From Candidatus Rokuibacteriota bacterium (lineage in GTDB: Bacteria > Methylomirabilota > Methylomirabilia > Rokubacteriales > CSP1-6), in contig JACPDG010000047.1 in assembly GCA_016184125.1 (NCBI GenBank), forward strand, positions 1 to 64,000: a DNA stretch of 64,000 nt, written 5' to 3'. Made by a program: the position numbers and the translations under genes. The notes under the pieces are model-generated. The model worked only from the letters and a program-made list of their open reading frames with translations, did no database searches and was not told the origin of the DNA. Of this stretch, positions 13,460 to 53,105 are shown piece by piece. The stretch's first letter is position 1; the number at the start of each line of letters is the position of its first letter.

Positions 13460-13586
13460 GGCTCTGGACACGACGATTGGTGAGCGATCGGCGCTCTGAA
13501 ATGATTGGCCCGCGCCGTCTGCGAGGTGTCGCGCCGCCGCCCCGGCGGCGGGCCCCGGCTCGGCCCCAGGCGCAAGGAGGTTCGTG

Positions 13587-16423: not shown

Positions 16424-17798
16424 CGCGCGCGTCCTCGTCGTCGACGACGAGCCGTCGATGCGCGAGCTGCTCGGCGTCGTGCTCCGCAAGGACGCGTACG
16501 ACGTCGTGCTGGTCGACGGCGGCGAGGCGGCGATCGAGGCGATCCGGGCGGAGGTGTTCGACCTCGTCATCACCGATCTGCGCATGCGCAAGGTCGACGG
16601 GCTCGCGGTCCTGCGCGCGGCCAAGGAGCACTCGCCCCAGACGGTCGTGCTGGTCGTGACGGCGTACGCCTCCACCGAGACGGCGGTCGAGGCGATGAAG
16701 GCGGGCGCCTACGACTACATCACCAAGCCGTTCAAGCTCGACGAGATCCGGCTGACCATTGCGAACGCGCTCGAGCGCAAGCGTCTGGTCGACGAGAACC
16801 AGGCGCTGCGCCGGCAGCTCCGCCAGGAGCGGTCGCTCGAGGCCTTCGTCGGAAAGAGCCGCACGATGCTCGACGTGCTCGACACGATCCGCAAGATCGC
16901 GGACAGCGCATCGACCGTCATGATCACGGGCGAGAGCGGCACGGGCAAGGAGCTCGTCGCCCGCGCGATCCACCAGGAAAGCCCGCGCCGCAAGCGCCCC
17001 TTCGTGTCCGTCAACTGCGGCGCCGTGCCCGAGAGCCTGATGGAGTCCGAGCTGTTCGGCCACGTGAAGGGCGCCTTCACCGGGGCCGTCGCGAGCACCA
17101 TCGGTCTCTTCGCGGCGGCCGACGGCGGCACGCTGTTCCTCGACGAGATGACCGAGATCCCGCCGTCCGTCCAGGTGAAGCTCCTGCGAGCGATCCAGGA
17201 GCGGGAGATCCGGCGGGTCGGTGACACGCGCGACATCAAGGTGGACGCGCGGCTCATTGCCGCCTCGAACCGCGACCTGGCGAAGGCCGTCGCGGACGGG
17301 ACGCTCCGGGAGGACCTGTTCTACCGGCTCAACGTCATCCCGATCCACCTGCCGCCGCTGCGCGACCGCGTCGAGGACATCCCGCTCCTGGTCGCCCACT
17401 TCATCGAGAAGATCGCGCGCGAGGTGGGCAAGACGGTCCGCGGGATCTCGCCGGAGGCGCTCGCGATCCTCGAGCGGTACCGCTGGCCCGGCAACATCCG
17501 GGAGCTGGAGAACGTCATCGAGCGTGCGATCGTCCTGGGCAGCGGCGAGACGCTGACGCCGGACGAGCTCCCGCCGGACCTGTGCCGCCCCCAGGGTGTC
17601 CCGACCGTCCCCGTCCATGTCCCAACGGCCGGGATCGACCTCGAGGGCACGCTCGACCAGATCGAGCGCCAGTACATCGAGCTCGCGCTGCAACGCACCG
17701 GAGGTGTCCAGACGCGGGCGGCCGAGCTGCTGAAGCTGTCGTTCCGTCAGTTCCGATACAAGCTGCAGAAACACGCGCAGCGGCTGTCGAAAGAGTAG
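16416..17798 (+). CDS. pilR: Sigma-54-dependent response regulator PilR
   Basis: A 460-residue NtrC-family activator. The receiver domain has the phospho-acceptor D54 (LVITDLRMRK). The AAA+ domain has Walker A GESGTGKE at 172-179 and the sigma-54-contacting GAFTGA loop at 219-224. A Fis-type helix-turn-helix closes the protein (QTRAAELLKLSFRQFRYKLQ). It starts at an ATG 8 bp inside the end of pilS. Phosphorylated PilR should activate a -24/-12 promoter; a matching element with upstream dyads lies before pilA at 20799-20927. Confidence 0.95.
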   Translation: MADARVLVVDDEPSMRELLGVVLRKDAYDVVLVDGGEAAIEAIRAEVFDLVITDLRMRKVDGLAVLRAAKEHSPQTVVLVVTAYASTETAVEAMKAGAYDYITKPFKLDEIRLTIANALERKRLVDENQALRRQLRQERSLEAFVGKSRTMLDVLDTIRKIADSASTVMITGESGTGKELVARAIHQESPRRKRPFVSVNCGAVPESLMESELFGHVKGAFTGAVASTIGLFAAADGGTLFLDEMTEIPPSVQVKLLRAIQEREIRRVGDTRDIKVDARLIAASNRDLAKAVADGTLREDLFYRLNVIPIHLPPLRDRVEDIPLLVAHFIEKIAREVGKTVRGISPEALAILERYRWPGNIRELENVIERAIVLGSGETLTPDELPPDLCRPQGVPTVPVHVPTAGIDLEGTLDQIERQYIELALQRTGGVQTRAAELLKLSFRQFRYKLQKHAQRLSKE

Positions 17799-18286: not shown

Positions 18287-19459
18287 CTACTTCTTGAGCT
18301 TCCGGTCGTACTGGATGTCGAGCTTGAGGCCTTCGATGTCGGTCGTCTTCTCGCCGCGCTTCTGCTTCGTCCGGTCGATGCCCCGCTGCACGACCGCCTT
18401 CCGCGTGGCATAGACCACGGCGGTCTCCTCGGTGATCAGCCCGGCGTCGTACGCGCGCACGATGGCCTGATCGAACGTCTGCAGGCCGTACGTCTCGCCG
18501 GCCTCCTGGATCTCGTAGAACGTCTTGCCTTCCGCCTCGCCGTTCAGGATCGACTCGCGGCTGCGAATCGTGTTCGCGAGGATGTCGTGGACGGCGACAC
18601 GACCGCCGCCGACCTTGGGCAGCAGCCGCTGGCCCACGACCCAGCGGATCGTGTCCGCGAGGCGCTGGCGAATCTGCTTCTCCTCTTCCTGGTCGAACAT
18701 GCCGACGATGCGATTCACCGTCGATCCGGCGCTGATCGTGTGGAGGGTCGACAGCACGAGGTGCCCGGTCTCCGCCGCCTTCATGCCGAGCTCGACGGTC
18801 TCGCGGTCGCGCATCTCGCCCACGAGGATGATCTTCGGGGCCTGGCGGAGGGCGGCGCGCAGCCCGTTCGCGAACGAGTCGTAGTCCGTCCCGAGCTCGC
18901 GCTGGTTGAAGGTCGCCTTCCGGTTCGGGTGCACGAACTCGACGGGATCCTCGAGCGTGACGATGTGCACCGCGCGCGTGACGTTGAACTCGTTGAGCAG
19001 CGCGGCGAGCGAGGTCGACTTGCCGCTGCCGGTCGCGCCGGTCACGAGGATCAATCCCGTCTTCTCGTCGAGCATCTTCCGGAACGCGTCCGGCAGCTTG
19101 AGCTCGTCGATGGTCGGGATCTTCGTCTCGAGCTTCCGCAGCACGATCGAGAGGTTGCCCCGCTGCTGGAAGACGTTGACGCGGAACCGCGCCCGCGACC
19201 CGAGCGAGTAGGAGAGATCGCACGAGCCCTGGGTCGCCAGGATGTGGCTGAGCCGCCGATCGTTGTTGATGAGGTTGAGCGCGAACGTCTCCGTCTGGAA
19301 CGGCGTCAGGCTCTCCACGGGTGGCTCGATCGGCACGGGCGCGAGCTGCCCCGACGCCTCGACCTGGAGCGGCCGGTCGACGGTCAGGTTGAGGTCCGAG
19401 ACGTTGTCGTGCGAGTCGAGCATCGTGTTCAGGAGGTCGTCGATCTCGGGCTTCCGCAT
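18287..19459 (-). CDS. PilT/PilU-family retraction ATPase
   Basis: A 390-residue second PilT-type motor. An N-terminal PAS-like domain (DLNLTVDRPLQVEASGQLAP) leads to Walker A GATGSGKST, Asp box (TLEDPVEFVH), Walker B (KIILVGEMRDRETVELG) and His box (GHLVLSTLHT). It diverges clearly from the adjacent PilT (about 30 residues longer, with a different C-terminal tail), as PilU does in other bacteria. It probably modulates or assists pilus retraction. It lies 30 bp downstream of pilT in the same direction. Confidence 0.88.
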   Translation of the reverse strand: MRKPEIDDLLNTMLDSHDNVSDLNLTVDRPLQVEASGQLAPVPIEPPVESLTPFQTETFALNLINNDRRLSHILATQGSCDLSYSLGSRARFRVNVFQQRGNLSIVLRKLETKIPTIDELKLPDAFRKMLDEKTGLILVTGATGSGKSTSLAALLNEFNVTRAVHIVTLEDPVEFVHPNRKATFNQRELGTDYDSFANGLRAALRQAPKIILVGEMRDRETVELGMKAAETGHLVLSTLHTISAGSTVNRIVGMFDQEEEKQIRQRLADTIRWVVGQRLLPKVGGGRVAVHDILANTIRSRESILNGEAEGKTFYEIQEAGETYGLQTFDQAIVRAYDAGLITEETAVVYATRKAVVQRGIDRTKQKRGEKTTDIEGLKLDIQYDRKLKK

Positions 19460-19489
19460 GCGGTCTCCTCCTCCGTCCCGGCAGCCGGC

Positions 19490-20566
19490 CTACGAGAACT
19501 CGTCCGGCGGGGTCTTCAGGAACGGCAGGAACTTCTGCTTGTCGATCGACTTGTCGTAGGCGTCCTCGGGACCGATCCGCTTGGCGTTGAGATGCTCCAT
19601 GATCGCGTCGTCGAGCGTCTGCATCCCGAACTTCTTGCCCGTCTGGATCGCCGACGGGATCTGGTGCGTCTTGCCCTCGCGAACGAGGTTCGAGACGGCG
19701 GGCGTGCACACGAGGATCTCGAGCCCGGCGACCCGGCCCCGCTTGTCGATGCGCTTGAAGAGGTTCTGCGCGACGACGACCTTGAGGCCGGTCGAGAGGC
19801 TGTTGCGGATCTGCGCCTGCTCCTCCGCCGGGAACACCTCGATCACACGGTCGACGGTCTTGGCCGCGCTCGTCGTGTGCAGGGTGCCGAACACGAGGTG
19901 CCCGGTATTCGACGCCTCGATGGCGAGCCGGATGGTCTCGAGGTCCCGCATCTCGCCGACGAGGATGATGTCCGGGTCCTCCCGGAGCGCGCCCTTGAGC
20001 GCCGCCGCGAAGGACCGCGTGTGCGTGCCGACCTCCCGGTGGTTCACGAGGCAGCCCTGACTCTGGTGCACGAACTCGATCGGGTCCTCGACCGTGATGA
20101 TGTGGTCCTTCCGGTTCTTGTTCGCGTGATCGATGATCGCCGCGAGCGTCGTCGACTTGCCGGAGCCCGTCGGACCGGTCACGAGGACGAGGCCCTTGTT
20201 GAGCATGCCCGACTTCTTGAGCACGGGCGGCAGGTTGAGCTCGTCGGCGGTCAGCACCTTCGTCGGGATCTGGCGGAACACCGCGCCGACGCCGTTCTTC
20301 TGCATGAAGAAGTTCGCGCGGAACCGGGCGACGCCGGGGATCTCGTACCCGAAGTCGACGTCACCCGTCTCCTCGAAGATCTTGATCTTGTGCTCGGGCG
20401 CGATCTCGTACAGCATCGCGCGCAGGTCGTCGTTCTCGAGCGGGTCGTACTTGATCCGCTCGAGATCGCCCTGCAGCCGGACGATCGGCTGCTGCCCGGC
20501 CACGAGGTGCAGGTCGGAGGCACCCTGGTCGAACATGAGCTTGAAGAAGGCGTCGATCCTCGCCAT
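19490..20566 (-). CDS. pilT: Type IV pilus retraction ATPase PilT
   Basis: A 358-residue PilT that depolymerises the pilus for twitching and DNA uptake. It has the N-terminal domain (GASDLHLVAGQQPIVRLQGD), Walker A GPTGSGKST, Asp box (TVEDPIEFVH), Walker B (DIILVGEMRDLETI), His box (GHLVFGTLHTTSA), and the PilT-typical AIRNL-like region as AVSNLVREGKTHQIPSAIQT. All motifs are intact. A probable promoter lies at 20658-20687. It is divergent from pilA. Confidence 0.95.
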   Translation of the reverse strand: MARIDAFFKLMFDQGASDLHLVAGQQPIVRLQGDLERIKYDPLENDDLRAMLYEIAPEHKIKIFEETGDVDFGYEIPGVARFRANFFMQKNGVGAVFRQIPTKVLTADELNLPPVLKKSGMLNKGLVLVTGPTGSGKSTTLAAIIDHANKNRKDHIITVEDPIEFVHQSQGCLVNHREVGTHTRSFAAALKGALREDPDIILVGEMRDLETIRLAIEASNTGHLVFGTLHTTSAAKTVDRVIEVFPAEEQAQIRNSLSTGLKVVVAQNLFKRIDKRGRVAGLEILVCTPAVSNLVREGKTHQIPSAIQTGKKFGMQTLDDAIMEHLNAKRIGPEDAYDKSIDKQKFLPFLKTPPDEFS

Positions 20567-20991: not shown

Positions 20992-21396
20992 ATGACCGCA
21001 TTCAGGAAGGGGCGGGGGCTCGGCGGGGAGCGAGGCTTCACGCTGATCGAGCTCCTCATCGTGGTGGCCATCATCGGGATCCTGGCGGCGATCGCCGTCC
21101 CGCTCTACAACAACATCCAGCAGCGCGCCCGCATCGCGAAGGGCGCCGCCGACGTCCGCGCCCTCGCCGGCGCGGTCTCGATGTATTCGGCGCACATGGG
21201 CAACCTGCCCAGCACGATGAACCTGCTGACCGCATCCAGCTCGAACTCCGGCGGCCAGACGGCGGGCGCCTTCATGGGCGCGATCCCGGCGCAGCCGTCG
21301 GGCGGCGGCTGGGTCACCTACGTCTACGCGAGCTCCGCGGACGGCACGTTCACCGTCTCCTCGACCGGCGACAGCACGACGGCCAAGGCGCCCTGA
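20992..21396 (+). CDS. pilA: Major type IV pilin PilA
   Basis: A 134-residue prepilin. A 15-residue basic leader ends in Gly (GLGGERG) and is followed by the type-IV N-helix [20 protein letters not shown], with Glu5 of the mature protein present for assembly. The mature pilin is short (119 residues), has no cysteines and a Ser/Thr/Gly-rich C-terminal half, similar to small geopilin- or GspG-like pilins. AAAGGAGG lies 6 bases before the ATG. It is expressed from the sigma-54 promoter just upstream and followed by a hairpin terminator. Ser/Thr-rich surface loops could be glycosylation targets (inference). Confidence 0.93.
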
Positions 21397-21420
21397 GCGC
21401 CTGCCGCTTCCGAGTGGTAC

Positions 21421-21454
21421 GAGGCCAAGGGCGAGCCCGTCTCCCCTTGGCCTC
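21421..21454 (+). terminator. Hairpin terminator downstream of pilA
   Basis: An 11-bp perfect stem (GAGGCCAAGGG, 21421-21431, pairing with CCCTTGGCCTC, 21444-21454) with a 12-base loop is followed by the pyrimidine-rich GCTCTTCCT. It lies 24 bp after the pilA stop and 9 bp before the next gene, and would make pilA more abundant than the downstream genes. Confidence 0.65.
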
Positions 21455-21463
21455 GCTCTTCCT

Positions 21464-23365
21464 GTGAGCATCCTCGGGTTTCCGCGCACGCGAGCGACCG
21501 GCCTTGCCGTGGTCGCCGCCGTCACGCTCCTCGTCTTCGCGCCGTCCCTCGAGAACGACTTCGTCGGCTGGGACGATCCGGTCCTGTTCACGCAGAACGA
21601 GCAGTACCGGGGACTCGGCCCCGCGCAGCTCGCATGGATGTTCAGCACGACGCTGATGGGACACTACGTGCCGGTCACCTGGCTCACGCACGGGCTGGAC
21701 TACGTCCTGTGGCAGATGAGGCCCGCCGGCTATCACCTCACGAACGTCCTGCTCCATGTGGCCACCACCGCGCTCTTCTACCTCGCCGTCCTCCGCCTGC
21801 TCCCGCGAACGATGCCGGTGTCCCGCGAGACCGCCCCGCTCGCCGCGGCCGCCAGCGCGCTCTTCTTCGCGCTCCATCCGCTCCGCGTCGAGTCGGTCGC
21901 ATGGATCACCGAGCGCCGTGGTGTGCTGTCCGGTTTCCTCTTCATGCTCACGCTGTTCCTCTACGTGCTCGCCGTCGACGGCCAGCCACGTGCCACCGAT
22001 CGTGGATCGCCGCCGGAAGACGCCGGCCGACGCCGGACGCGGCTGCTGCACGCGGCGGCGTGTCTCTCGTACGGGCTCGCGATCTTCTCGAAGTCCATCG
22101 TGATGACACTGCCCGCGATCCTCGTCCTGCTGGACGTCTATCCATTCCGCCGGCTGAACGGCGACTGGCGCGCGTGGGCCCGCCCGCCCGCGTGGCTCGT
22201 CTGGCGCGAGAAGATTCCTTACGCCGCGCTCGGCGGCCTCGCGGCGATCGTCGCCGTCTGGGCGCAGGCGACAGGAGCCGCGTTCACGTCCCCCGAGAGT
22301 CTCGGCGTGACGACGCGCCCGGTTGTCGTGGCGCACAGCCTCTGGTTCTATCTCGTGAAGACGCTCATGCCGTTCGGTCTGTCGCCGCTCTACGAGCCGC
22401 CGGCCCGCATCGACCCGCTGGCGCCGCAGTTCCTCGTGCCGGCGATCGCCGCCGGCGGGGTCGTCACGGTCCTGCTCGCCGTGCGGCGGCGCTGGCCCGC
22501 GGGTCTCGCCGTCCTGCTCGGCTACGCGATCCTGCTCGCTCCGGTCAGCGGGCTCGTCCACGCCGGCAACCAGCTCACGCACGATCGCTACAGCTATCTC
22601 GCCGGCCTGCCCATCTCGCTCCTCGCCGGCGCGGGCGTGGGACTGCTGCTCGGGGACGGCTGCCGCGCGCGGCTGCGCCCTGGACTGCGTGCGGCCATGC
22701 TCGCTTCGGTGGCCGGCTGGCTGCTGGCGCTCGGCGCAACGTCGGCGCTTCACGTGCAGACGTGGAAAAACGACGAGAGCCTGTGGAGACAGGCGGTGGA
22801 TTCCCGGCCCGACTGCTCCATCTGCGAGGTCAACCTGGGCGCCGCGCTCCTTCGCGACGGCCTCGCGCGCCCGGCGATCGCACGCTTCGAGCGCGCCCTC
22901 GCCCTTCGTCCCGATCGGGTGAACGCGCACCTGAACCTCGGCCTCGCCCTCGCGGACGTCGGTGAGCTCGGCCGCGCGGTCGAGGAGCTCCGGTGGGTGC
23001 TGGCGCACCACCCCGATCACCTCGAAGCGCTCGGCCCCCTCGGCAGCGTCCTCGCGCGTCAAGGGCGGCACGCGGAGGGTCTGGCGCTTCTGAGAGTCGC
23101 AGAACGCCATCAACCGCACGATCCACGCGTGCTCTCCTCTCTGGGTCTCGTGCTCCTGGACGCCGGGCATGCTGCAGAGGCGATTGCCGTGCTCGAGCGG
23201 GCAGTCCAGGCCGATCCGCGGTCGGCGGCGAGCCTCGCGGGGCTCGCGGCCGCGCACAGGGCGGCCGGTGACGAAGCCCGCGCGCATGCCCTGCAGCAGA
23301 CGCTCGCCGGGCTGGACTCCGGCCTGGCGGCGCGGACCGCGCCCGCCACGGTCCCGACGTGGTGA
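21464..23365 (+). CDS. TMTC-like polytopic membrane protein with C-terminal TPRs, paralogue 1
   Basis: A 633-residue protein with about 10-11 membrane helices (residues 12-440) followed by four or so TPRs (residues 450-620). The first periplasmic loop carries the acidic WDD motif (NDFVGWDDPVLFTQNE) of GT-C enzymes. HYVPVTWLTHGLDYVLWQ, GYHLTNVLLH and FFALHPLRVESVAWITERR match the signature blocks of metazoan TMTC protein O-mannosyltransferases. Such enzymes use lipid-linked sugar to modify exported proteins; the substrate here is unknown. It starts at GTG directly after the pilA terminator and is the first of three paralogues, so pilin or envelope protein O-glycosylation is an attractive inference. 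Confidence 0.82.
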   Translation: MSILGFPRTRATGLAVVAAVTLLVFAPSLENDFVGWDDPVLFTQNEQYRGLGPAQLAWMFSTTLMGHYVPVTWLTHGLDYVLWQMRPAGYHLTNVLLHVATTALFYLAVLRLLPRTMPVSRETAPLAAAASALFFALHPLRVESVAWITERRGVLSGFLFMLTLFLYVLAVDGQPRATDRGSPPEDAGRRRTRLLHAAACLSYGLAIFSKSIVMTLPAILVLLDVYPFRRLNGDWRAWARPPAWLVWREKIPYAALGGLAAIVAVWAQATGAAFTSPESLGVTTRPVVVAHSLWFYLVKTLMPFGLSPLYEPPARIDPLAPQFLVPAIAAGGVVTVLLAVRRRWPAGLAVLLGYAILLAPVSGLVHAGNQLTHDRYSYLAGLPISLLAGAGVGLLLGDGCRARLRPGLRAAMLASVAGWLLALGATSALHVQTWKNDESLWRQAVDSRPDCSICEVNLGAALLRDGLARPAIARFERALALRPDRVNAHLNLGLALADVGELGRAVEELRWVLAHHPDHLEALGPLGSVLARQGRHAEGLALLRVAERHQPHDPRVLSSLGLVLLDAGHAAEAIAVLERAVQADPRSAASLAGLAAAHRAAGDEARAHALQQTLAGLDSGLAARTAPATVPTW

Positions 23366-23393
23366 CCCCGCTGGGCGGCCCCACCTCGGAAAT

Positions 23394-23513
23394 CATGGGG
23401 GGACTATCGAAGCCCCCCAAGCCCCCCGCGCTCGGAGCGCCCCGGGGGGTGCGCGGACGCACCCGCCAAAGCCGTGGCGCTCCTCGATCACCCGATTCGC
23501 TCACGGGCGCTGA
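23394..23513 (+). repeat. Two-hairpin intergenic repeat, copy 4
   Basis: CATGGGGGGACTATCGAAGC with two C6 runs is followed by CTCGGAGCGCCCCGGGG, an extra GTGCGCGGACGCAC hairpin, and the tail CCCGATTCGCTCACGGGCGC ending TGA. It separates paralogues 1 and 2, begins 29 bp after the first gene's stop, and stays open in the frame of the downstream gene. Confidence 0.85.
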
Positions 23514-23586
23514 GACGATCGAGCCGGCGCTGGTTGCGAGCACCGCCGCGCGCGACAGGGAGCCCGGGGCGACGGCTTCACGCTGC

Positions 23587-25461
23587 GTGTGCGCGACGGC
23601 GCGCGACGCCGGGCGCGCGCACTGGCTCGACCGCCTGATGCCCGTCAGCGTCGGCGTCGTGACGTTCATCGCGCTGTCGGCCACCCTGAGGAACGGGTTC
23701 GTGGAGTGGGACGATCCGGTCCTCATCACCGGCAACGAAGCGTACCGCGGCCTCGGGTGGCGGCAGATCTCGTGGATGTTCGGCAACATCCTCATGGGCC
23801 ACTACGTCCCGATCACGTGGCTCACGCTCGGCCTCGACTACGTGCTCTGGGGCATGCGTCCGGCGGGCTATCACCTCACGAATCTGCTCCTGCACGCGGC
23901 GAACGCCGCGATGTTCTGGCTCGTGGCCCTCCGGCTCCTCACCGCGGCCACGCGCCTGTCGTCGCACGCGCTGCACGTCGCCGCGACCGCGACCGCGCTC
24001 TTCTTCGCGCTGCATCCGCTGCGCGCCGAGTCGGTCGCGTGGATCACCGAGCGTCGCGACGTCCTGTCCGGCTTCTTCTTCTTCCTGACGATCCTCCTGT
24101 ATCTCCACAGCGCTCGGCAGCGCGGCCACACGTACTGGGTGTGGCAGGGGCTCGCGTGGCTCACCTATCTCCTCGCGATCCTCTCGAAGTCGATCGTCAT
24201 GACCTTGCCCGTGGTGCTCATCGTCCTCGACTTCTATCCGCTCCGTCGTCTCGGCCCGGACTGGCGGAGCTGGTTGCGCCGTCCGGCCTGGCTCGTGTGG
24301 CGCGAGAAGATCCCGTTCGTCGCGCTCGGGCTGCTCGCCGCGCTGCTCGGCTACTACGGGCAAGCGGCCAACCGGTACCTCACGTCGCTCGACCAGGTGC
24401 ACTGGACGGACCGCCCGGCGCTGGTCTTCTACAGCGTCTGGTTCTACGTCGCGAAGACCTTCCTGCCACTCGGCCTCGCGCCGCTCTACGAGCTGCCGGC
24501 CCGCGTCGACCCGCTCGCGTGGACGTTCCTCGGGCCGGCGCTCGGCGTCGTCGCCATCACCGTGACGGTGCTCGCGCTGCGCCGGCGGTGGCCGGCAGGG
24601 CTCGCGGTGTGGATCTCGTACGGCGTCATGATCGCCCCCGTGAGCGGAGCGGTCCACGCCGGGCACCAGCTCGCCCACGACCGGTACAGCTATCTCTCGT
24701 GCCTCGGCTGGGCGCTCCTCGTCGGCGCCGCGGTGGGCGCGTTCGTGCAGCTCGTGCAGCGCCGCGCGCTGACGCGCGTCGTGGCCCACGCCGGCACGGT
24801 CGCGCTCGCCGCCGCGTTCCTGGGGCTCGCGGTGCTCGGCTCTCAGCAGGTCGAGGCGTGGCGCGACACCGAGACCCTCTGGCGCACGGCGATCGACGCG
24901 AGGCCGGACTGCGCGATCTGCGAGCAGAACCTCGGCGTGCACCTGTTCAAGCAGAATCTGCTCGACGCGGCGCGCGGACACTACGAGCGCGCGCTGGCGC
25001 TCCGTCCGGACCGGATCAAGTTCCACTACAACCTCGGGCTCGTGTTCGCGCAGGTCAACGACCTGCCGCGCGCCACCGTGCAATTCGCTCGCGTCGTGAA
25101 GGAGCGCCCGGATGACGTCCAGGCCCTCATGAACCTCGGCGTTGCCCTGATGAAGCAGCGCCGCGCCGCGGAGGGCCTCGTTCACCTCCGCCGCGCCATG
25201 ATGCTGAAGCCTGACGACTCCCTGGTGCTGTCGAACCTCGGGCTCGCCCTCACCGAGACCGGCAACGCCGCTGCCGCCGTCGGCGTGCTGCAGCGCGCGG
25301 TGGCCTCGACGCCCGACGCCGCCGGCGGCTACCATGCGCTCATGCGGGCGCACCTCGCGCTCGGCAATGTCGAGGCGGCGCGGACCGCGCACGACGCGCT
25401 GGGCCGCATCGACCCGGCGCGCGCCCGGGCGCTCGCACCGCTGCTCGCCGTGGAATGGTGA
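23587..25461 (+). CDS. TMTC-like polytopic membrane protein with C-terminal TPRs, paralogue 2
   Basis: A 624-residue paralogue with the same architecture: GNGFVEWDDPVL-like acidic loop (seen as RNGFVEWDDPVLITGNE), HYVPITWLTLGLDYVLWG, FFALHPLRAESVAWITERRD, a multi-helix core and four or five TPRs (YERALALRPDRIKFHYNLGL is typical). The frame is open back to 23359 through the intergenic repeat, which gives an implausible proline/arginine-rich leader. I therefore use GTG 23587, which leaves a short basic tail before the first helix; ATG 23638 is the alternative. The stop is 4 bp from the next paralogue's start. Confidence 0.82.
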   Translation: MCATARDAGRAHWLDRLMPVSVGVVTFIALSATLRNGFVEWDDPVLITGNEAYRGLGWRQISWMFGNILMGHYVPITWLTLGLDYVLWGMRPAGYHLTNLLLHAANAAMFWLVALRLLTAATRLSSHALHVAATATALFFALHPLRAESVAWITERRDVLSGFFFFLTILLYLHSARQRGHTYWVWQGLAWLTYLLAILSKSIVMTLPVVLIVLDFYPLRRLGPDWRSWLRRPAWLVWREKIPFVALGLLAALLGYYGQAANRYLTSLDQVHWTDRPALVFYSVWFYVAKTFLPLGLAPLYELPARVDPLAWTFLGPALGVVAITVTVLALRRRWPAGLAVWISYGVMIAPVSGAVHAGHQLAHDRYSYLSCLGWALLVGAAVGAFVQLVQRRALTRVVAHAGTVALAAAFLGLAVLGSQQVEAWRDTETLWRTAIDARPDCAICEQNLGVHLFKQNLLDAARGHYERALALRPDRIKFHYNLGLVFAQVNDLPRATVQFARVVKERPDDVQALMNLGVALMKQRRAAEGLVHLRRAMMLKPDDSLVLSNLGLALTETGNAAAAVGVLQRAVASTPDAAGGYHALMRAHLALGNVEAARTAHDALGRIDPARARALAPLLAVEW

Positions 25462-25465
25462 GGCG

Positions 25466-27466
25466 ATGGAACAGGGCTCCGGCGAGGTGACGGTCACACC
25501 ACTGGCGCGCGGGCCGGTCGCCGCGCCGGTCGAGCACGCGATCCGCGCCCGGCTCGTCGACGTCGTCGTGCACCCCGCGGTCGTGCCCCTCGTCGTCGCC
25601 GCGCTGACGGCCGCGACCTTCGCCGGCACGCTGTGGAACGGCTTTGTCGACTGGGACGACACCAAGCTCCTGGTGAAGAACGAGGCCTATCGCGGGCTCG
25701 GATGGACGCAGATCTCGTGGATGTTCAGCAACGTGATGATGGGGCACTACGTGCCGATCACCTGGCTGACGCACGGCCTCGACTACGTCCTCTGGGGCAT
25801 GCGCCCCGCGGGGTACCACCTCACGAACCTCCTGCTGCACGCCACGAATGCCGCGCTCTTCGCTCTCGTCGCGCTGCGGCTCCTTGACGCCGCCGCGCGC
25901 TTCACGGCACCCGTACGCCGCCTCGCCGCCGCAGCCGCCGCCCTGTTCTTCGCGCTGCATCCGCTGCGCACCGAGTCCGTCGCGTGGGTCACCGAGCGGC
26001 GTGACGTGCTGTCGGGTGCCTTCTTGCTCGTGACGCTCCTGCTGTACCTGCGCAGCCACGGCGAGCCGGGCGCGCCGGGAGGTGCCTTCCCCGACGCGGT
26101 CGCTCCGCGAGTCGATCGACTCAGCTCGAGCGCCCGCTACTGGACGTATCAGGCGCTCGCCTGGGTCGCCTACCTGCTCGCGATCCTGTCGAAGTCGATC
26201 GTGATGACGCTGCCGGTGATCCTCGTGCTGCTCGACTTCTATCCGCTGCGGCGGCTCGGTCCGGACTGGCGCGCGTGGGGTCGCCCGCCCGCCTGGCTCG
26301 TGTGGCGGGAGAAGATCCCGTACACCGCCCTCGCCGCGCTCGCCGCGATGCTCGGCTACTACGCGCAGGAAGCGAACGGCTTCTTCACGTCGCCGGACAT
26401 CGTTCCGTGGACCGCGCGGCCCTCGCTCGTGCTCTACAGCTTCTGGTTCTACGTCGAGAAGACCGTCCTGCCGCTCCGGCTCGCCCCGCTCTACGAGCTG
26501 CCGGCGTCGATCGATCCGCTGGCGTTCCGATTCCTCGTGCCGGCCGCGGTGATCGTGCTCGCGACCACGATCCTCGTCGCCTTCCGGCGCCGCTGGCCGG
26601 CCGGGCTCGCCACGTGGCTCTCGTACACGATCCTCCTCGCCCCCGTCGCCGGGCTCACGCACTCCGGCTACCAGCTGGCGCACGACCGGTACAGCTACCT
26701 GTCGTGCCTGCCGTGGGCCCTGCTCCTCGGCGCAGGCGTTGGAGCGCTCCTCCGCGCCGGAACCGGGGGCGCGCTGCGCCCGATCATCGTCAAGGCCGGT
26801 GTCCTCGCCTTCGCGGCGTGGCTGGCCGGGCTCTCGGTCCTGACCTGGCAGCAGGTCGAGACGTGGCGCGACACGGACAGCCTCTGGCTCAACGCCGCGG
26901 AGGCAGAGCCGGCATGCGCCCTCTGTCGCTACAACGTCGGCGCTCGGGCGTTCAACTCGGGCCTCCATTCGATTGCCCGCGACCAGTTCCAGCGCCTCCT
27001 GCAGTTCCGCCCGGACCGCGTGCAGATCCATGGGCATCTCGGCCTGGCCCACGTGGCGCTCGGGGAGATCGAGCAGGCGATTGCCGCGTACCGCCGGGTC
27101 CTCGCGCGCGACCCGAACGACGCCGAGACGCACAACAACCTCGGCGTGGCCCTCCAGATCCTCGGCCGGCGGCGTGAGGCGCTCGCCGAGATGGAGTACG
27201 CGCTCCGCCTCGCGCCGGACAACGAGATGGTGCGGACGAACATCGCCATCCTCTACGCGCAGCTCGGCCAGCCAGCGCAGGCGATGCCGCACCTGACACG
27301 CGCGCTCGAGCTCAAGCCCGATCTCGCGCGGGCGCGGTTCGAGCTCGCGTCCCTGCTCCTCGCGGCCGGGCGCGTGGAGGCGGCACGGGACCACTACGAG
27401 CGGCTGCAGCAGGACGACGGAGCGCTCGCGAGCATCCTCGGGCCGGCCTTCCTCGCCACCTGGTGA
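25466..27466 (+). CDS. TMTC-like polytopic membrane protein with C-terminal TPRs, paralogue 3
   Basis: A 666-residue third copy, with a longer cytoplasmic N-terminus (about 45 residues) and a Pro/Gly-rich insert near residue 200 in the loop after the ERRDVL motif. WNGFVDWDDTKLLVKNE, HYVPITWLTHGLDYVLWG and FFALHPLRTESVAWVTERRD repeat the TMTC-type blocks, and the C-terminal TPRs include LGVALQILGRRREALAEMEY. It is separated by 4 bp from paralogue 2 and by 6 bp from pilD, so these genes probably form one transcript with the pilin-processing enzyme. That strengthens the link to pilus biogenesis. Confidence 0.82.
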   Translation: MEQGSGEVTVTPLARGPVAAPVEHAIRARLVDVVVHPAVVPLVVAALTAATFAGTLWNGFVDWDDTKLLVKNEAYRGLGWTQISWMFSNVMMGHYVPITWLTHGLDYVLWGMRPAGYHLTNLLLHATNAALFALVALRLLDAAARFTAPVRRLAAAAAALFFALHPLRTESVAWVTERRDVLSGAFLLVTLLLYLRSHGEPGAPGGAFPDAVAPRVDRLSSSARYWTYQALAWVAYLLAILSKSIVMTLPVILVLLDFYPLRRLGPDWRAWGRPPAWLVWREKIPYTALAALAAMLGYYAQEANGFFTSPDIVPWTARPSLVLYSFWFYVEKTVLPLRLAPLYELPASIDPLAFRFLVPAAVIVLATTILVAFRRRWPAGLATWLSYTILLAPVAGLTHSGYQLAHDRYSYLSCLPWALLLGAGVGALLRAGTGGALRPIIVKAGVLAFAAWLAGLSVLTWQQVETWRDTDSLWLNAAEAEPACALCRYNVGARAFNSGLHSIARDQFQRLLQFRPDRVQIHGHLGLAHVALGEIEQAIAAYRRVLARDPNDAETHNNLGVALQILGRRREALAEMEYALRLAPDNEMVRTNIAILYAQLGQPAQAMPHLTRALELKPDLARARFELASLLLAAGRVEAARDHYERLQQDDGALASILGPAFLATW

Positions 27467-27472
27467 TGCGGA

Positions 27473-28222
27473 ATGGACGTCGTCGCGGTCGCCCTGTTCG
27501 GACTCGTCGCCGGCAGCTTCCTCAACGTCGTGATCGTGCGCGTGCCCGAGCGCCGAAGCCTGTGGAGCCCGCCGTCCTCGTGCCCGGGATGCGGCGTCGC
27601 GATCCGATGGCGTGACAACGTCCCGGTGCTGTCGTTCCTGCTCCTGCGCGGGCGATGTCGCGCGTGCGGGATGGCCATCGCCTGGCGTTACCCTGCCGTC
27701 GAAACCGCGACGGCGGCCCTGTGGGTCGTCGCGTATCTGACGTTCGGGCCCTCGCCCGATTTCGGCGTGGCGTTGGTATTCCTCAGCGCGCTGATCGCCG
27801 TCACGGGGATCGACCTCGCGCACCAGATCATTCCGGACGTGATCACGCTCCCGGGCATCGTGGCAGGCCTCGTTGCCAATGTGGCCACGCGGCGCGTGAG
27901 CATCGTCGATGCGCTCGTCGGAATCGCGATGGGTGGCGGCATCTTTTTGGTTATCATCGTCGCGAGCGGTGGCGGAATGGGTGGCGGCGACATGAAGCTC
28001 GGAGCGATGTTCGGCGCCTTTCTCGGATGGAAGGTCGCGCTCGTCGCGCTGTTCATCGCCGTGCTTCTCGGCGGAACGGTCGCCGCAGTGCTGCTCGTCA
28101 CGGGGCGCGTGCGCCGCAAGGACCCGGTCCCGTTTGGCCCTTTCCTTGCAGCCGGCGGCGCTGCGGGTTTGCTATGGGGCGAGAACCTCGTCGGATGGTA
28201 CGCGAGCGGATTCGGCGGCTAG
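27473..28222 (+). CDS. pilD: Prepilin peptidase / N-methyltransferase PilD
   Basis: A 249-residue inner-membrane aspartyl protease that cleaves prepilin leaders and methylates the new N-terminus. The cytoplasmic zinc-type loop has C37/C40 (CPGCG) and C62/C65 (CRACG). The two aspartate sites of the family are TGIDLAHQIIPD (D114/D122) and GGGMGGGDMKLGAMFGAFLG (D173). About eight membrane helices are present. Its substrates in this window are PilA and three minor pilins. Its last 28 bp overlap the following FimT/GspH-like gene. Confidence 0.95.
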   Translation: MDVVAVALFGLVAGSFLNVVIVRVPERRSLWSPPSSCPGCGVAIRWRDNVPVLSFLLLRGRCRACGMAIAWRYPAVETATAALWVVAYLTFGPSPDFGVALVFLSALIAVTGIDLAHQIIPDVITLPGIVAGLVANVATRRVSIVDALVGIAMGGGIFLVIIVASGGGMGGGDMKLGAMFGAFLGWKVALVALFIAVLLGGTVAAVLLVTGRVRRKDPVPFGPFLAAGGAAGLLWGENLVGWYASGFGG

Positions 28223-28764
28223 GCGCGCGGCGCATCGACAGCGACGGCTTCAGTCTCGCCGAGCTGATCGTCGTGATCGCCGTCATCGGCGCGCTCGCCG
28301 TGCTCGGCATGCCCACCTTCCTCACCTACTGGAGAACGTCGACCCTGCGCGCCGGCGCGCAGGAGGCCGTGACGGTCCTGAACTCGGGCCGGCAGCTCGC
28401 GATCAGGGAAAACCAGTGGCTGTGCATCCTGGGCGACGTGACCGCCGGGACCTATGGCGCGAAGCTGCGCTACATCGTCGCGACCGGTGCGTCGTGCTCG
28501 GGGACGCAGAAGTGCGCGGACAACGGCAACACCGCGCCGTGCATCTGGACGGGTCCGGGAACCGACGGGAGCGGGTACATGACGCTCGCGAATCGGATGC
28601 AGGTGAAGGCGCCCGAGACGACCGTGAAGTTCTCCTATCTGGGCGCTGCGAACCCGGCCGGCAGCTTCTTCGTTCGCGACCCCGACAACACGGGCGCGTG
28701 CGCCAGGCTGGCCGTCGCCGCGTCGGGGCGGATCACCACGACGTACCTCGGCTCGGGATGCTGA
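28195..28764 (+). CDS. FimT/GspH-type minor pilin
   Basis: A 189-residue prepilin beginning inside the end of pilD. The Arg-rich 18-residue leader ends in Gly (RRIDSDG) before FSLAELIVVIAVIGALAVLG, retaining Glu5. The middle part has the GspH/FimT pattern (EAVTVLNSGRQLAIRENQWL) and the mature protein has six cysteines, probably disulphide-bonded in the periplasm. Minor pilins of this class prime pilus assembly, and FimT can bind DNA in naturally competent bacteria; that function is not demonstrated here. Confidence 0.85.
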   Translation: MVRERIRRLGARRIDSDGFSLAELIVVIAVIGALAVLGMPTFLTYWRTSTLRAGAQEAVTVLNSGRQLAIRENQWLCILGDVTAGTYGAKLRYIVATGASCSGTQKCADNGNTAPCIWTGPGTDGSGYMTLANRMQVKAPETTVKFSYLGAANPAGSFFVRDPDNTGACARLAVAASGRITTTYLGSGC

Positions 28765-28779: not shown

Positions 28780-28898
28780 CATGGGGGGCCTCGAAGGGCC
28801 CCCCAATCCCCCCCGGCGCTCGGAGCGCCCCGGGGGGTGCGCGGACGCACCCGCCAACGCCGTGGCGCTCCTCGACCACCCGATCGGCTCACAGGCTC
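28780..28898 (+). repeat. Two-hairpin intergenic repeat, copy 5
   Basis: It begins CATGGGGGGCCTCGAAGGGC 15 bp after the FimT/GspH-like stop codon, has the CGGAGCGCCCCGGGG arm and the GTGCGCGGACGCAC hairpin shared with copy 4, and ends CCCGATCGGCTCACAGGCTC. It splits the minor-pilin operon 12 bp before the next start. Copies 4 and 5 are nearly identical in their second halves, indicating recent relatedness. Confidence 0.85.
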
Positions 28899-28910: not shown

Positions 28911-29468
28911 ATGGCTGGCGACGAGCGCGGCGTGACGCTCGCCGAGGTCCTCGTCGCCACGATCGTGATCAGCATCGGGCTCGTCGGGCTCGCGATGGTG
29001 ATCCCGCTGTCGACCTACGGCGTGCACGAGGGCAACGCGCTGTCCACGGCGACGTTTCTCGCCGAGCAGCGGCTCGAGGAAGTGCGGAACGCCACGTGGG
29101 CGTGTCCGGGGAGCAGCGCGAGCCCGTGCCCGGTCGCGGCGCCTCCGGCGAATGACTGCCTCGGGCTCGGCTCGGCGAGCGCGCCCACGTCGACGACGTG
29201 CGAGCGCGAGCTGCCAACGGATTGCGATTCCGGCACGTCGTGCACCACGTGGGCGGACGAGGAACCGGTCACCGGCTCTCCCGCCTACCGCCGGAACGTC
29301 CGTGTGATCGACTGCGGGAGCGGCAGCGGCTGCGCGGGCGTCGTCGACGGCGCGATGCGGCTCGTGCGGGTCACGGTGACCTACACGCCGATGAGCGGCG
29401 TCGGCGGGCAGGGCACGGGCACCGGGAAGTCGGCGGTGCTCGAGATGATCATCGCCAGGCGCCAGTGA
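28911..29468 (+). CDS. PilV/GspI-type minor pilin
   Basis: A 185-residue prepilin. The very short leader MAGDERG is followed by VTLAEVLVATIVISIGLVGL, with Glu5 retained and Val instead of Phe at +1. The downstream ALSTATFLAEQRLEEVRNAT segment is typical of PilV/GspI. The mature part is unusually rich in cysteine (about eight) and Ser/Thr. The ATG lies 12 bp after the end of the intergenic repeat and no clear ribosome site is seen. The stop overlaps the next gene's GTG by 4 bp. Confidence 0.83.
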   Translation: MAGDERGVTLAEVLVATIVISIGLVGLAMVIPLSTYGVHEGNALSTATFLAEQRLEEVRNATWACPGSSASPCPVAAPPANDCLGLGSASAPTSTTCERELPTDCDSGTSCTTWADEEPVTGSPAYRRNVRVIDCGSGSGCAGVVDGAMRLVRVTVTYTPMSGVGGQGTGTGKSAVLEMIIARRQ

Positions 29469-29995
29469 ACGAGCGCGGCTTCACGCTGGCGGAGCTGCTC
29501 GTCTCGGTCGCGGTGCTCGGCCTGGTGATGGCGGGCGTCTTCGTCCTGCAGCAGCAGGGCCAGATCGCGTATCTCTGGGGCTCGGCGCGCGTGGAGGTGC
29601 AGCAGAACGCCCGGTTCGCGCTGGACCTCATGACGCGCGAGCTGCGCTCCGCACTCTCCATCACGAGCGTCGGCGCCAACTGCAACAACACCACCGGCGC
29701 CGACACGATCACGTTCACGGACGCCTCCAACGCGATCGTCATCTACGCGCTCAGCGGCTCGGTGCTGCAGCGGAGCTACGCCGGCACCAACACGGACATC
29801 ATCGGCGGCGTCGCATCCTTCAAGGTCTTCTGCTACAACGCCGACGGGTACACGCCGGTGGCGGCGGGCAGCGAGGCGAACATCCACTCGCTCAGGATCG
29901 TCGTCGAGACCCAGGCGGAGTCGACGACCGCGAGCGGTGCCGCAGGCGCGCAGCGGGCGATCGTCGAATCCCGCGTCAAGCTGAGGAACCTGTGA
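29465..29995 (+). CDS. PilW/GspJ-type minor pilin
   Basis: A 176-residue prepilin starting at a GTG that overlaps the previous stop. Minimal leader VNERG, then FTLAELLVSVAVLGLVMAGV, and the PilW/GspJ-like NARFALDLMTRELRSAL helix followed by a beta-rich domain. Two cysteines (C in GANCNNTT and FKVFCYN) may pair. It probably forms part of the initiating minor-pilin complex with the two upstream pilins. Its stop overlaps the GTG of the downstream lipoprotein gene (GTGA). Confidence 0.83.
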   Translation: MNERGFTLAELLVSVAVLGLVMAGVFVLQQQGQIAYLWGSARVEVQQNARFALDLMTRELRSALSITSVGANCNNTTGADTITFTDASNAIVIYALSGSVLQRSYAGTNTDIIGGVASFKVFCYNADGYTPVAAGSEANIHSLRIVVETQAESTTASGAAGAQRAIVESRVKLRNL

Positions 29996-30738
29996 GGCCA
30001 CGGCTCGCGGCGGCCCTCCTGCTGGCGCTCGCGCTCGCCGCCTGTCAGGGGGCGCCGACCGAGCCGCCGCGCCCGGCGAGCCAGGCGAAGGGCGACGCCG
30101 CCGCGCGCGCCCGCGAGGCGATGGCCCGGCGGGACTGGAACATGGCAGCGCCCTTGCTCCGTGAAGCGGTCGCTGCGCGGCCGGCCGATGTCTCGCTCCA
30201 CTACGATCTCGCCGTGGCAGCCTCGTATCTCGATCTTCGCGATGAGGCGATCCGGGAGTTCCGGTGGGTCGTCGCCAACGCGCAGCCCGACTCCCAGGAG
30301 TACAAGGCGGCGAAGAGCTGGCTGGCCGAGGCGGAAGGCACGGGCGGCACCCGGTCGACCGCAGCCCCGCCCGCCCGGCCCGCCGACAAGTCGACCACGC
30401 TCCACGTCGAGCGCGTGGGGGATGCGGGCCTCTATGGCCGCGTCACGTGGTCTTCCGAGCCCGGAGGGCCGCAGTCCACCAAGCGGATGCAGATCCACCT
30501 GACCGGCCTCCCCGGCACGTCGGCCAAGGAACAGCGCTACACCGTCCGGACGGACGACGAGGGCCGCTACGAGTTCAAGCGGATCGTGGCCGGCCCGTAC
30601 AAGCTCTCGGATCGGGTCGCCGGCCAGCCGGTCTGGCGCCTGAAGGTCCAGGTGGAAGCGGGCCGCGAGACCGCGGTCGATCTCCAACCCGGTAACAGCG
30701 TGACGCTGCGCGACGACTTCCCCGACGAGGGTCGGTGA
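29992..30738 (+). CDS. TPR-containing lipoprotein downstream of the minor pilins
   Basis: A 248-residue exported protein with a lipobox (LALALAAC) at the end of an 18-residue signal peptide. Residues 30-110 hold about two TPR-like helix pairs (AREAMARRDWNMAAPLLREA), then a Pro/Ala linker. The C-terminal beta domain resembles a carboxypeptidase-regulatory/Cna-B-like fold (RTDDEGRYEFKRIVAGPYKL). It is translationally coupled to the PilW-like gene. It may be an outer-membrane accessory protein in the position where PilF/PilW pilotins are found, but it is not a classical pilotin and this is only inference. Confidence 0.7.
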   Translation: MRPRLAAALLLALALAACQGAPTEPPRPASQAKGDAAARAREAMARRDWNMAAPLLREAVAARPADVSLHYDLAVAASYLDLRDEAIREFRWVVANAQPDSQEYKAAKSWLAEAEGTGGTRSTAAPPARPADKSTTLHVERVGDAGLYGRVTWSSEPGGPQSTKRMQIHLTGLPGTSAKEQRYTVRTDDEGRYEFKRIVAGPYKLSDRVAGQPVWRLKVQVEAGRETAVDLQPGNSVTLRDDFPDEGR

Positions 30739-30740: not shown

Positions 30741-31017
30741 CTGAACGAATCTGGTAGTCGAGGAGCGCGGGGGCCGGCGGGAGGTGTCGAAGCGAGGGTG
30801 GGCGAGGAGCGCCACGGCTTTGCCGGGGCGCTCCGAGGGGCGGTGGCCGGAAGTGATGCATCTGCGGCTCGGGGGCGAGGAGCGCCACGGCTTTGCCGGG
30901 GCGCTCCGAGGGGCGGTGGCCGGAAGTGGTGCATCTGCGGCTCGGGGGCGAGGAGCGCCACGGCTTTGCCGGGGCGCTCCGAGGGGGGGCTTGGGGGGCT
31001 TCGATAGTCCCCCCATG
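30741..31017 (+). repeat. Two-hairpin intergenic repeat, copy 6, expanded with exact 73-bp units
   Basis: Reverse orientation relative to copy 1: it starts TGAACGAATC and ends GGGGGGCTTCGATAGTCCCC then CCATG. Inside, GAGGAGCGCCACGGCTTTGC recurs at 30804, 30877 and 30950, exactly 73 bp apart. Each of the first two units carries a segment that reads, on the minus strand, CCGAGCCGCAGATGCAYCAC, which is also found inside the glycosyltransferase gene at 52116-52152. The 396-bp gap between the lipoprotein gene and pilM holds this element plus the pilM promoter and no other gene. Confidence 0.85.
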
Positions 31018-31084
31018 ATCATAGACGGCCGAGTCGTAGTGGTCGCCGACAGTGCGGGCCCCAAGCCTAGTGTGACGGAAAACG

Positions 31085-31134: not shown

Positions 31135-32208
31135 ATGTTTAAGCCGAAGTTAGACCTGAAGTTCCTGCGCCGGAAGCCGGCGGAGATCTTCGGGCTGGAC
31201 GTGGGCTCGAGCGCCATCAAGGCCGTCCAGATCCGCGAGGCGGAGGGCGAGCACACACTCGGCGCCCTCGGCATCGTCACGCTGCCGCCCGACACCATCG
31301 CGGAGGGCTCCATCAAGGACCCGGTCACGGTCAGCGGCGCGATCAAGGAAGCCGTGCAGAGGGCCGGGCTGACGACGCCGAACGCGGTGATCTCGATCTG
31401 CGGCCGCGAGCTGATCATCAAGAAGGTGCAGATTCCCGCCATGCCTGCCAAGGAGCTGCACGACGCCGTGCACCTCGAGGCCGAGCACCACATCCCCTTC
31501 GCGATCGACGAGGTGTTCATCGACTACCACCCGGTCGCCGAGAGTGGCGGCACGCTCGATCTCATCCTGGTCGCCGTGAAGAAGTCCAAGGTGATGGAAT
31601 ACATCACCGTGGTCGAGGACGCGGGGCTGAACGCGCTGATCGTGGACGTCGACAGCTTCGCGCTCTCCAACCAGTTCGAGCTGAACGCGCCCGACACTTC
31701 CGAGGAGGCCGTCGCGCTCATCGACATCGGCGCGTCGATCATGAAGACGAACGTGATGCGCGCCGGTGCGTCGATCTTCGCCCGCGACATCCCGTTCGGC
31801 GGCAACCAGTACACGCAGGCGATCGCGCAGCGGCTCGGCGTGCCGTTCGAGCAAGCCGAGGCGGCCAAGCTCGGCCGCGACCCCGACGTCGAGTGGGAGT
31901 CGCTGCTGCCCGCGGTCGAGGAGGTCTCGCACGAGCTGTCGCTGGAGGTCCAGCGCACCTTCGACTACTTCGCCTCCACGGCCGAGTCGGAGCGGATCGG
32001 CAAGATCCTGCTGTCGGGAGGGTGCTGCCAGGTGCCCGGTCTCAACGAGTACCTGGCGTCGAACTGGGGGATCCCCGTCGAGCTGGCGCGGCCGTTCGAG
32101 CGGATCGCCGTGCCGGACGAGCACGTGGAGACGGTCACCGCCGCCGGCCCGTCGCTCGCGGTCGCCGTCGGCCTCGGGCTCAGGAGGCCGGGAGACAAGG
32201 CATCATGA
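31135..32208 (+). CDS. pilM: Type IV pilus assembly protein PilM (actin-like)
   Basis: A 357-residue cytoplasmic actin-fold protein with nucleotide-binding motifs IFGLDVGSSAIKAVQI and ALIDIGASIMKTNVM and a C-terminal ILLSGGCCQVPGLNEYL. It binds the PilN N-terminal tail and links the motor to the alignment complex. The second of two nearby ATGs (31135) is favoured by AGGTGA 6 bases upstream. Its stop overlaps the pilN start (ATGA). Confidence 0.96.
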   Translation: MFKPKLDLKFLRRKPAEIFGLDVGSSAIKAVQIREAEGEHTLGALGIVTLPPDTIAEGSIKDPVTVSGAIKEAVQRAGLTTPNAVISICGRELIIKKVQIPAMPAKELHDAVHLEAEHHIPFAIDEVFIDYHPVAESGGTLDLILVAVKKSKVMEYITVVEDAGLNALIVDVDSFALSNQFELNAPDTSEEAVALIDIGASIMKTNVMRAGASIFARDIPFGGNQYTQAIAQRLGVPFEQAEAAKLGRDPDVEWESLLPAVEEVSHELSLEVQRTFDYFASTAESERIGKILLSGGCCQVPGLNEYLASNWGIPVELARPFERIAVPDEHVETVTAAGPSLAVAVGLGLRRPGDKAS

Positions 32209-32771
32209 TCCGGATCAACCTCGCGCCGCCCGAGGGACGGCCCCGCCGCGGCGCCGGCGGACGTTTCCAGCTCAAGATCCCGGAGATCAACCTCGCCGTC
32301 GCGTTCGCGGTCGCGTACGCGATCGCGCTCATCGTCGTCGGCGCCTGGTGGTGGCAACTCTCGAGCGAGGAGGCCGACCTGACGCAGCGGACCGTGCAGG
32401 CGGCCAGCGAGCTCGAACAGCTGAAAGTGCGCGTCGGCCAGGTCGGCAAGGTGCGCGACCAGGTCGCCGACCTCAAGAAGCGGGTCGACGCGATCCAGGA
32501 GCTCACGAAGAACCAGGTGCGTCCCGTCGTGCTGTTCGACGCTCTCGCCGATGTCGTACCGCGCGAGCTGTGGCTGACCGGGCTGGAAGAGCGCGGCACG
32601 ACGCTCAGGATCACGGGCACGGCGTTCTCCGCCACCGCCGTCGCCGACTTCATGGCGAACCTCCGCTCGTCCGGCCGGTTCAAGGAGGTGGACATCGTCC
32701 TCTCCCGGCAGGACCTGACGAAGACGCCGCGGCAAGTCACGTTCGAGGTCACCTGCCGCTTCGAGAGCTGA
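32205..32771 (+). CDS. pilN: Type IV pilus alignment protein PilN
   Basis: A 188-residue bitopic protein. The conserved PilM-binding tail MIRINLAPPEG opens the protein, a single membrane helix covers about residues 29-48 (AVAFAVAYAIALIVVGAWWW), then a coiled coil and a ferredoxin-like periplasmic domain (LWLTGLEERGTTLRITGTAF). It forms the inner-membrane alignment complex with PilO and PilP. It is coupled to pilM by a 4-bp overlap and has 1 bp before pilO. Confidence 0.94.
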   Translation: MIRINLAPPEGRPRRGAGGRFQLKIPEINLAVAFAVAYAIALIVVGAWWWQLSSEEADLTQRTVQAASELEQLKVRVGQVGKVRDQVADLKKRVDAIQELTKNQVRPVVLFDALADVVPRELWLTGLEERGTTLRITGTAFSATAVADFMANLRSSGRFKEVDIVLSRQDLTKTPRQVTFEVTCRFES

Positions 32772-32772
32772 C

Positions 32773-33378
32773 ATGGAGCTGCCTCCCTTCTTCGATCCGA
32801 TCGTCGACCTCGACCGCAAGTACAAGCTGGTCATCGGCATCGTCGGGCTCATCGTGGTCGTCGCGGTGCCGTGGTATTTCGCCATCGCGCCGGCGCAGGA
32901 GCGCGTCGCCAAGCTCGACGCCCAGCTCCAGCAGACCCAGGCTGAGATCGCGCAGCAGCGCGCGATCCTGGCGCAGCTCGAGACGTTCAAGCGGCAGCTC
33001 GCCGAGCTCGAGAAGCAGCTCTCCGGGCTGACGCAGAAGCTCCCCACGGAGCGCGAGATGCCGCCGCTCTACCGGACGCTCTCCGATTCCGCCTTCCAGA
33101 CCGGGCTGGCCGTCATGCTGTTCCAGCCTCGCGAGGCACGCGTCCGTGACTACTACGCCGAGATTCCGATCACGCTGACGGCCGAGGGCGGCTATCACGA
33201 CCTGGCGCAGTTTCTCGATCGACTGGCCGGCCTGCCGCGCGTGGTCACCGTGGGCAACTGGAAGCTGACCGGGCTCGGCCGGGCCAAGTCGCCGATGCGC
33301 GCCGACCTGACGCTCGCGACGTACCAGTACCGGCCCGTCGGGTCGCCGCCGGCGCCGAAGCCGGGAGCGAAGAAATGA
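32773..33378 (+). CDS. pilO: Type IV pilus alignment protein PilO
   Basis: A 201-residue bitopic protein with one membrane helix (LVIGIVGLIVVVAVPWYFAI), a periplasmic coiled coil (residues 45-95) and a C-terminal ferredoxin-like domain (YYAEIPITLTAEGGYHDLAQ, typical PilO). It heterodimerises with PilN. The stop overlaps the pilP start by 4 bp (ATGA). Confidence 0.94.
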   Translation: MELPPFFDPIVDLDRKYKLVIGIVGLIVVVAVPWYFAIAPAQERVAKLDAQLQQTQAEIAQQRAILAQLETFKRQLAELEKQLSGLTQKLPTEREMPPLYRTLSDSAFQTGLAVMLFQPREARVRDYYAEIPITLTAEGGYHDLAQFLDRLAGLPRVVTVGNWKLTGLGRAKSPMRADLTLATYQYRPVGSPPAPKPGAKK

Positions 33379-53061: not shown

Positions 53062-53105
53062 CACGTCTTCTTCCCTCCTCGTGGGTGGCCCGCGCCGTCG
53101 CGGAG

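Follow-up and report, generated by a model that had tools for sequence, protein, structure and literature searches.

The 64,000-nucleotide stretch analysed here ('the window') spans positions 1 to 64,000 of contig JACPDG010000047.1, contig C94 in the genome of a soil bacterium (Candidatus Rokubacteria), which comprises 4.09 Mb in 121 contigs and is approximately 93% complete. It contains a complete pil cluster, in which three paralogous genes stand in tandem on the + strand between the major pilin gene pilA (20992–21396) and the prepilin peptidase gene pilD (27473–28222), both on the same strand. The two flanking genes were identified by Pfam/NCBIfam, pilA carrying a class III leader (PF07963), and pilD carrying PF06750 and PF01478. 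The three genes encode TMTC-like proteins, each with a GT-C-type membrane part followed by C-terminal tetratricopeptide repeats (TPRs). This arrangement had been proposed from the bare sequence (the original prediction), and the three genes do lie where it placed them, with the TMTC-like motifs visible in every copy. What is new here is a survey of relatives for occupancy of the pilA–pilD slot by TMTC types.

Copy 1 (21464–23365, +) has a GTG start and encodes 633 residues, while copy 3 (25466–27466, +) has an ATG start and encodes 666. The start of copy 2 (23638–25461, +) is uncertain: it may be the ATG at 23638 or a GTG or TTG upstream, and a longer open reading frame from 23359 runs through an interspersed repeat. 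Only 4 nt separate the stop of copy 2 from the ATG of copy 3, and 6 nt separate the end of copy 3 from pilD, which suggests co-translation. Pairwise identity among the copies is approximately 50–67%, and all three share the motifs WDD, GHYVPxTW, GYHLTN, and HPLRxESVAW(I/V)TERR as well as C-terminal TPRs. They are the only full-length genes of this type (hereafter 'window type') in the genome, which otherwise has one fragment, on contig C71.

Retention of the acidic catalytic residues on full alignment had been named as a critical point, and here the outcome is divided. The Asp-Asp pair (DD) of the first outer loop is invariant in all three copies, and also in alignments of 51 and 60 rows. The aspartate of the RxD motif is gone from copy 1, which reads ERRG where every other copy in a pil slot reads ERRD, a change unique among 21 such proteins. 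Copy 1 was considered as a decaying pseudogene and rejected as such, with two of 82 invariant positions altered, one of them this aspartate. Other decay in copy 1 is slight, and no feature of the three genes is more intriguing than this aspartate-to-glycine change; copy 1 may serve as a partner subunit that is altered or lacks catalysis.

A Pfam/NCBIfam scan of the three copies recognised the TPRs and no other domain. For structure prediction, input alignments were built from the window and related-locus sequences, and AlphaFold2 modelled copy 3 with high confidence both at full length (predicted local distance difference test score, pLDDT, 92.5; predicted template modelling score, pTM, 0.90) and as the membrane part (pLDDT 93.2, pTM 0.92). 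The membrane part was modelled alone because Foldseek matches to the full model were swamped by TPR proteins, among them PilF (2fi7). For the membrane part, Foldseek against the PDB places GT-C enzymes on top, namely ArnT (5f15, E 1.5e-4), AglB, STT3, PglB, and Pmt1/Pmt4, with probabilities of 0.99–1.00. Sequence identity to the structural matches (ArnT, PMT, AglB, PglB) is 11–16%, and sequence searches of the PDB returned no match for the membrane-part profile and TPR proteins only for the full length. The GT-C core of the original prediction has thus been tested by structural comparison, and the window copies are very probably GT-C glycosyltransferases.

Their kinship to TMTC proteins can be defined more closely. 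The conserved TMTC motifs are DD, SHKSYRP, RxD, KE(T/Q)xxT, DW, PxxP, and ERxxY, and full-length prokaryotic homologues have been noted before (PMC7801869), so that their existence is not new. As in TMTC1–4, the window proteins have a GT-C core and then C-terminal TPRs, with DD in the first outer loop and an H/Y-x-P block. The window type keeps the GHYVPxTW block, RxD (except in copy 1), the lysine of KE(T/Q)xxT, and, within DRYSY, the arginine and tyrosine of ERxxY. Unlike these animal O-mannosyltransferases, which carry PF08409 and belong to GT105, the window proteins are bacterial, are sited in a pilus operon, and have KE replaced by KS, KA or KG, DW by LY(E), and ER by DR; the copies themselves read SKSIVMT and (S/A)PLYE(L/P)P. 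A second bacterial type, here called KE-type, keeps KE, GRxD, and AER/AEHxLY.

Profile comparison by hhalign aligns the window type with the KE-type at E 1e-62 across 406 columns. Four of seven KE-type members match TMTC_DUF1736 (PF08409), and four of seven match PMT_2. In the window type, PMT_2 is matched by four of 60 members (best 4e-7) and TMTC_DUF1736 by none, and the window proteins themselves match neither model. A direct PF08409 search of the genome also found nothing, although its controls were silent too, which makes that result uninformative. These sequence comparisons establish homology between the window family and TMTC/PMT enzymes, and a shared mode of action is probable. The proposed kinship therefore stands as homology and falls as strict TMTC membership: the family is a divergent, separate TMTC-like branch that fails two TMTC sequence features, and its members are candidate rather than proven O-mannosyltransferases.

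Whether the neighbourhood is conserved was followed in 57 genomes of the same bacterial family, the window's own included. Loci were annotated by tblastn with the window pil proteins and by a hidden Markov model of the membrane part, and the flanks of pilD or of the TMTC-like gene were examined where available. The slot was resolved at 46 loci, with 11 further genomes unresolved. It holds the window type at 28 loci, the KE-type at six (G011, G024, G031, G075, G076, and G080), and another polytopic protein with TPRs at two, and it is empty at ten. Window-type genes are present in three copies here, two in G001, and otherwise one. The order pilA–[TMTC-like]–pilD is kept across more than a dozen genera, as expected if the original claim of a conserved locus was right. 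In another family of the class, a locus in G047 (L101) has pilins and an ABC transporter, followed by a KE-type gene, a family 2 glycosyltransferase (GT2) gene, and pilD.

In a tree of 148 sequences, 21 pil-slot members fall within one clade of 29 (support 0.97), indicating that the pil linkage is mostly inherited, while the KE-type genes in the same slot point to independent recruitment. As a control, the 80 best loci from other genomes were inspected. There the TMTC-like genes have no consistent partners and almost no pil genes near them; only two stand directly at pil genes, one in the same genus (L123) and one in Elusimicrobia (L161), where the TMTC-like gene adjoins a pilin gene and pilD in divergent orientation. 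Dispersed paralogues are also found, with up to about 15 matches per genome.

Several further arrangements were seen at these loci. The unrelated slot protein, from genera g12 and g13, has 818 residues (DSDAWTHLALGRE...), is complete in G013 (L097:8060–10516) and partial in G014 (L087, starting near 6000 and running to the end of the contig), and its membrane part has no Pfam match. In G001, of the window's genus, a further TMTC-like gene, the third, belongs to a different clade and lies between the pilR and pilT genes, close to a GT2 gene (L045:16179–18095). At least five TMTC-like genes are clustered about 10–20 kb from the pil locus of G020 (contig C54:30085–44505, L075), where the slot is empty and PilA lacks cysteine.

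An insertion owed to chance or history, and functionally unrelated to pili, would be compatible with the empty slots and with the abundance of related genes in these genomes. Such an origin is very improbable given a gene order maintained across more than twelve genera, the 6 nt between copy 3 and pilD, and the use of the same slot by more than one protein family.

Slot state appears to covary with the type of pilin. The window PilA has a 15-residue leader ending in glycine and a mature part of 119 residues with no cysteine. A similar PilA of about 116–123 residues, without a cysteine pair, accompanies 13 of 14 slots occupied by the window or KE type and one of nine that are empty or otherwise filled, where the remaining eight have a longer PilA with cysteines. 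In a second locus set, agreement extends to each of the eight window-type loci whose pilin could be read, to the KE loci (one with a single cysteine), and to G077, which has an empty slot and a four-cysteine PilA. Sister contrasts on a tree of the pil backbone give three agreements (G019 vs G017/G034; G009 vs G012; G007/G028 vs G013/G014/G032), no disagreement, and two neutral cases. The four-cysteine PilA is common to G012, G017, and G034, although G012 is not sister to the other two, which hints at cassette exchange.

A candidate donor enzyme can also be named. In G016 (L048), pilA and the TMTC-like gene have a GT2 gene between them, and the best solved relative of its product is dolichol-phosphate mannose (DPM) synthase (5mlz), followed more weakly by an ArnC-type enzyme. 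Across 146 TMTC-bearing loci (2.08 Mb), seven of 16 occurrences of DPM-synthase-like GT2 genes lie within 300 nt of a TMTC-like gene, among them those at L048 and L101, both inside pil loci. A rough estimate would expect about one, for a set of loci that is not a random sample. In the window's own genome, such a GT2 gene is found elsewhere, on contig C72. At L048, a gene for a YfhO-family membrane protein (PF09586; 13531–15864) sits between pilR and two pilA genes, adjoining the GT2–TMTC pair.

Taken together, the findings somewhat favour the view that the three genes form a pilin-dedicated glycosyltransferase cassette that depends on a polyprenyl-phosphate sugar; here it is present in triplicate, and copy 1 has lost one conserved aspartate. 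In the proposed mechanism, a cytoplasmic DPM-synthase-like GT2 would charge polyprenyl phosphate with a sugar, and the loaded lipid would flip across the membrane. In the periplasm, the GT-C domain would then place the sugar on the globular domain of a pilin, either PilA or a minor one, while this is held in the inner membrane, using the Asp-Asp pair of the first periplasmic loop and lysine and arginine residues that would bind phosphate. The C-terminal TPR array, predicted to be periplasmic, would hold the acceptor before pilus assembly. If the proteins are GT-C glycosyltransferases, a pilin or minor pilin is a fairly likely acceptor, and PilA is the probable one.

A number of observations weigh against this reading. 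Members of the branch in other phyla are mostly found away from pilus genes, so that pilin specificity is not a property of the family, and the slot is empty in ten members of the bacterial family, so that the slot gene is not essential for pili. The residues KE and DW, proposed to handle metal and phosphate in TMTC proteins, are those replaced in the window type, and no GT2 gene adjoins the window's three copies. The association with pilin type (Fisher 1.6e-4) is uncorrected for phylogeny, and it is broken by G074 and G020 (genus g19), with a cysteine-less PilA and an empty slot, and by G016, with a cysteine-containing pilin and an occupied slot. The original argument from a Ser/Thr-rich pilin finds no support: the pilin is not unusually rich in these residues, which make up 23% of the window PilA after residue 25, and their content does not differ significantly between pilins of occupied and empty slots (0.207 vs 0.186, p = 0.18). 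At mature residues S108 and T115, 94% of the pilins from occupied slots have serine or threonine.

The proteins might instead be GT-C glycosyltransferases of some other envelope acceptor, such as a lipid, a polysaccharide, or periplasmic proteins in general, with the pil operon providing co-expression only. The closest solved fold is that of ArnT, which modifies lipid A, and the orphan genes elsewhere and the dispersed paralogues are in keeping with such a role. This alternative is nonetheless unlikely, as the slot has been taken repeatedly and specifically by two TMTC subfamilies and appears to covary with pilin type, and as a TPR array suits protein acceptors. ArnT (GT83) itself has no TPR domain; what the window proteins would share with it and with PMT, AglB, and PglB, beyond the fold, is the logic of a polyprenyl-linked donor.

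A precedent for a pilin-dedicated glycosyltransferase cassette comes from Pseudomonas. Two pilin glycosyltransferases, TfpO and TfpW, are encoded there just downstream of pilA and act on cognate pilins, TfpW being cited as an arabinosyltransferase of GT-C type, whereas TfpY aids assembly instead; a terminator follows the pilin gene in these cassettes (PMC11841053). As at the TfpW and TfpO loci, the window has its genes directly 3' of the pilin gene with a hairpin between, and accessory type appears to covary with pilin type. In contrast to TfpW and TfpO, the window proteins have C-terminal TPRs, no match to Wzy_C (PF04932), and three tandem copies; the likeness is one of arrangement. The window hairpin is GC-rich (21420–21455, +) and was found by folding the spacer that leads from the pilA stop to copy 1, which as a whole folds at −36.1 kcal/mol (z = −3.7). 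No clear T-run was found at it, and similar hairpins follow pilA in empty-slot loci too; it is a possible attenuator.

The Pseudomonas precedent also shows that accessory proteins can be other than enzymes, and from it comes the main rival, in which the window proteins would serve the pilin as accessory factors or chaperones with no enzymatic role. The TPR array, resembling that of PilF/Tgl-type proteins, would then aid assembly, and the GT-C domain would be a repurposed membrane anchor. In Pseudomonas, TfpY-like proteins occupy the same gene position without pilin modification (PMC11841053), the KE and DW residues are replaced, and PilF is among the TPR matches. However, DD, RxD, K, and DRY are nearly invariant across more than 120 members from several phyla, which suggests catalysis, and DPM-synthase-like GT2 genes are neighbours in relatives. 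A chaperone role is improbable, slightly more so than another acceptor.

The gene context is best fitted by the original proposal of a pilin-accessory glycosyltransferase distinct from PglL/TfpO, its Ser/Thr argument apart. The proposed role in pilin O-glycosylation is shared with PglL/PilO, and no PglL/PilO-type or Wzy_C domain, which belong to different Pfam families, was matched in the window copies by Pfam/NCBIfam. More tentatively, TMTC-type enzymes may be swappable pilin-accessory cassettes of the pilA–pilD slot, drawn on at least two occasions from two TMTC subfamilies and passed on together with a cysteine-less form of pilin, and the three copies here may act as a set that includes one non-canonical member. 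Pilin glycosylation of this class would not have been described before; a literature search for TMTC-like genes in pilus loci found no report of them. The literature searched gives no role for bacterial TMTC-like proteins, which are widespread, and a conserved tie to one operon offers PilA as a concrete candidate acceptor and a GT2 as the likely partner that supplies the donor. If the reading is correct, chemistry of the TMTC type either predates its use on cadherins in animals or runs parallel to it, and pilin glycosylation gains a new enzyme type besides PglL/TfpO and TfpW.

The rest of the pil cluster was identified from translations, and most of its genes were matched to relatives. Upstream of pilA lie pilB, pilC, pilS, and pilR (11732–17798, +), followed by two genes in reverse orientation for pilT-like retraction ATPases (18287–20566, −). 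Downstream of pilD are genes for a FimT/GspH-like minor pilin (28270–28764, +; its start is uncertain and the gene begins upstream of 28270) and for PilV-like and PilW-like minor pilins (28959–29995, +), and then pilM, pilN, pilO, pilP, and pilQ (31135–36218, +). Between the minor pilins and pilM, a gene kept in several relatives encodes a protein with TPRs and a carboxypeptidase-regulatory-like domain (29992–30738). Further along (52276–56060, −) is a gene group of sugar-nucleotide type, encoding a hexapeptide transferase, a GT2, a DegT aminotransferase, and a Gfo/Idh/MocA oxidoreductase.

The repeat in the spacer between copies 1 and 2 is a genome-wide, REP-like interspersed element. Its core, GGGGGGACTATCGAAGCCCCCC, has 287 matches (two mismatches at most) in the 4.09-Mb genome and none in the control. 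In the window, the element occurs at 5670–5691, 8990–9011, 23392–23508 (the spacer), 28780–28896, and 30796–31019. It is often paired at a distance of about 90–120 nt, and one occurrence lies beside a tandem repeat of 73 bp at 30800.

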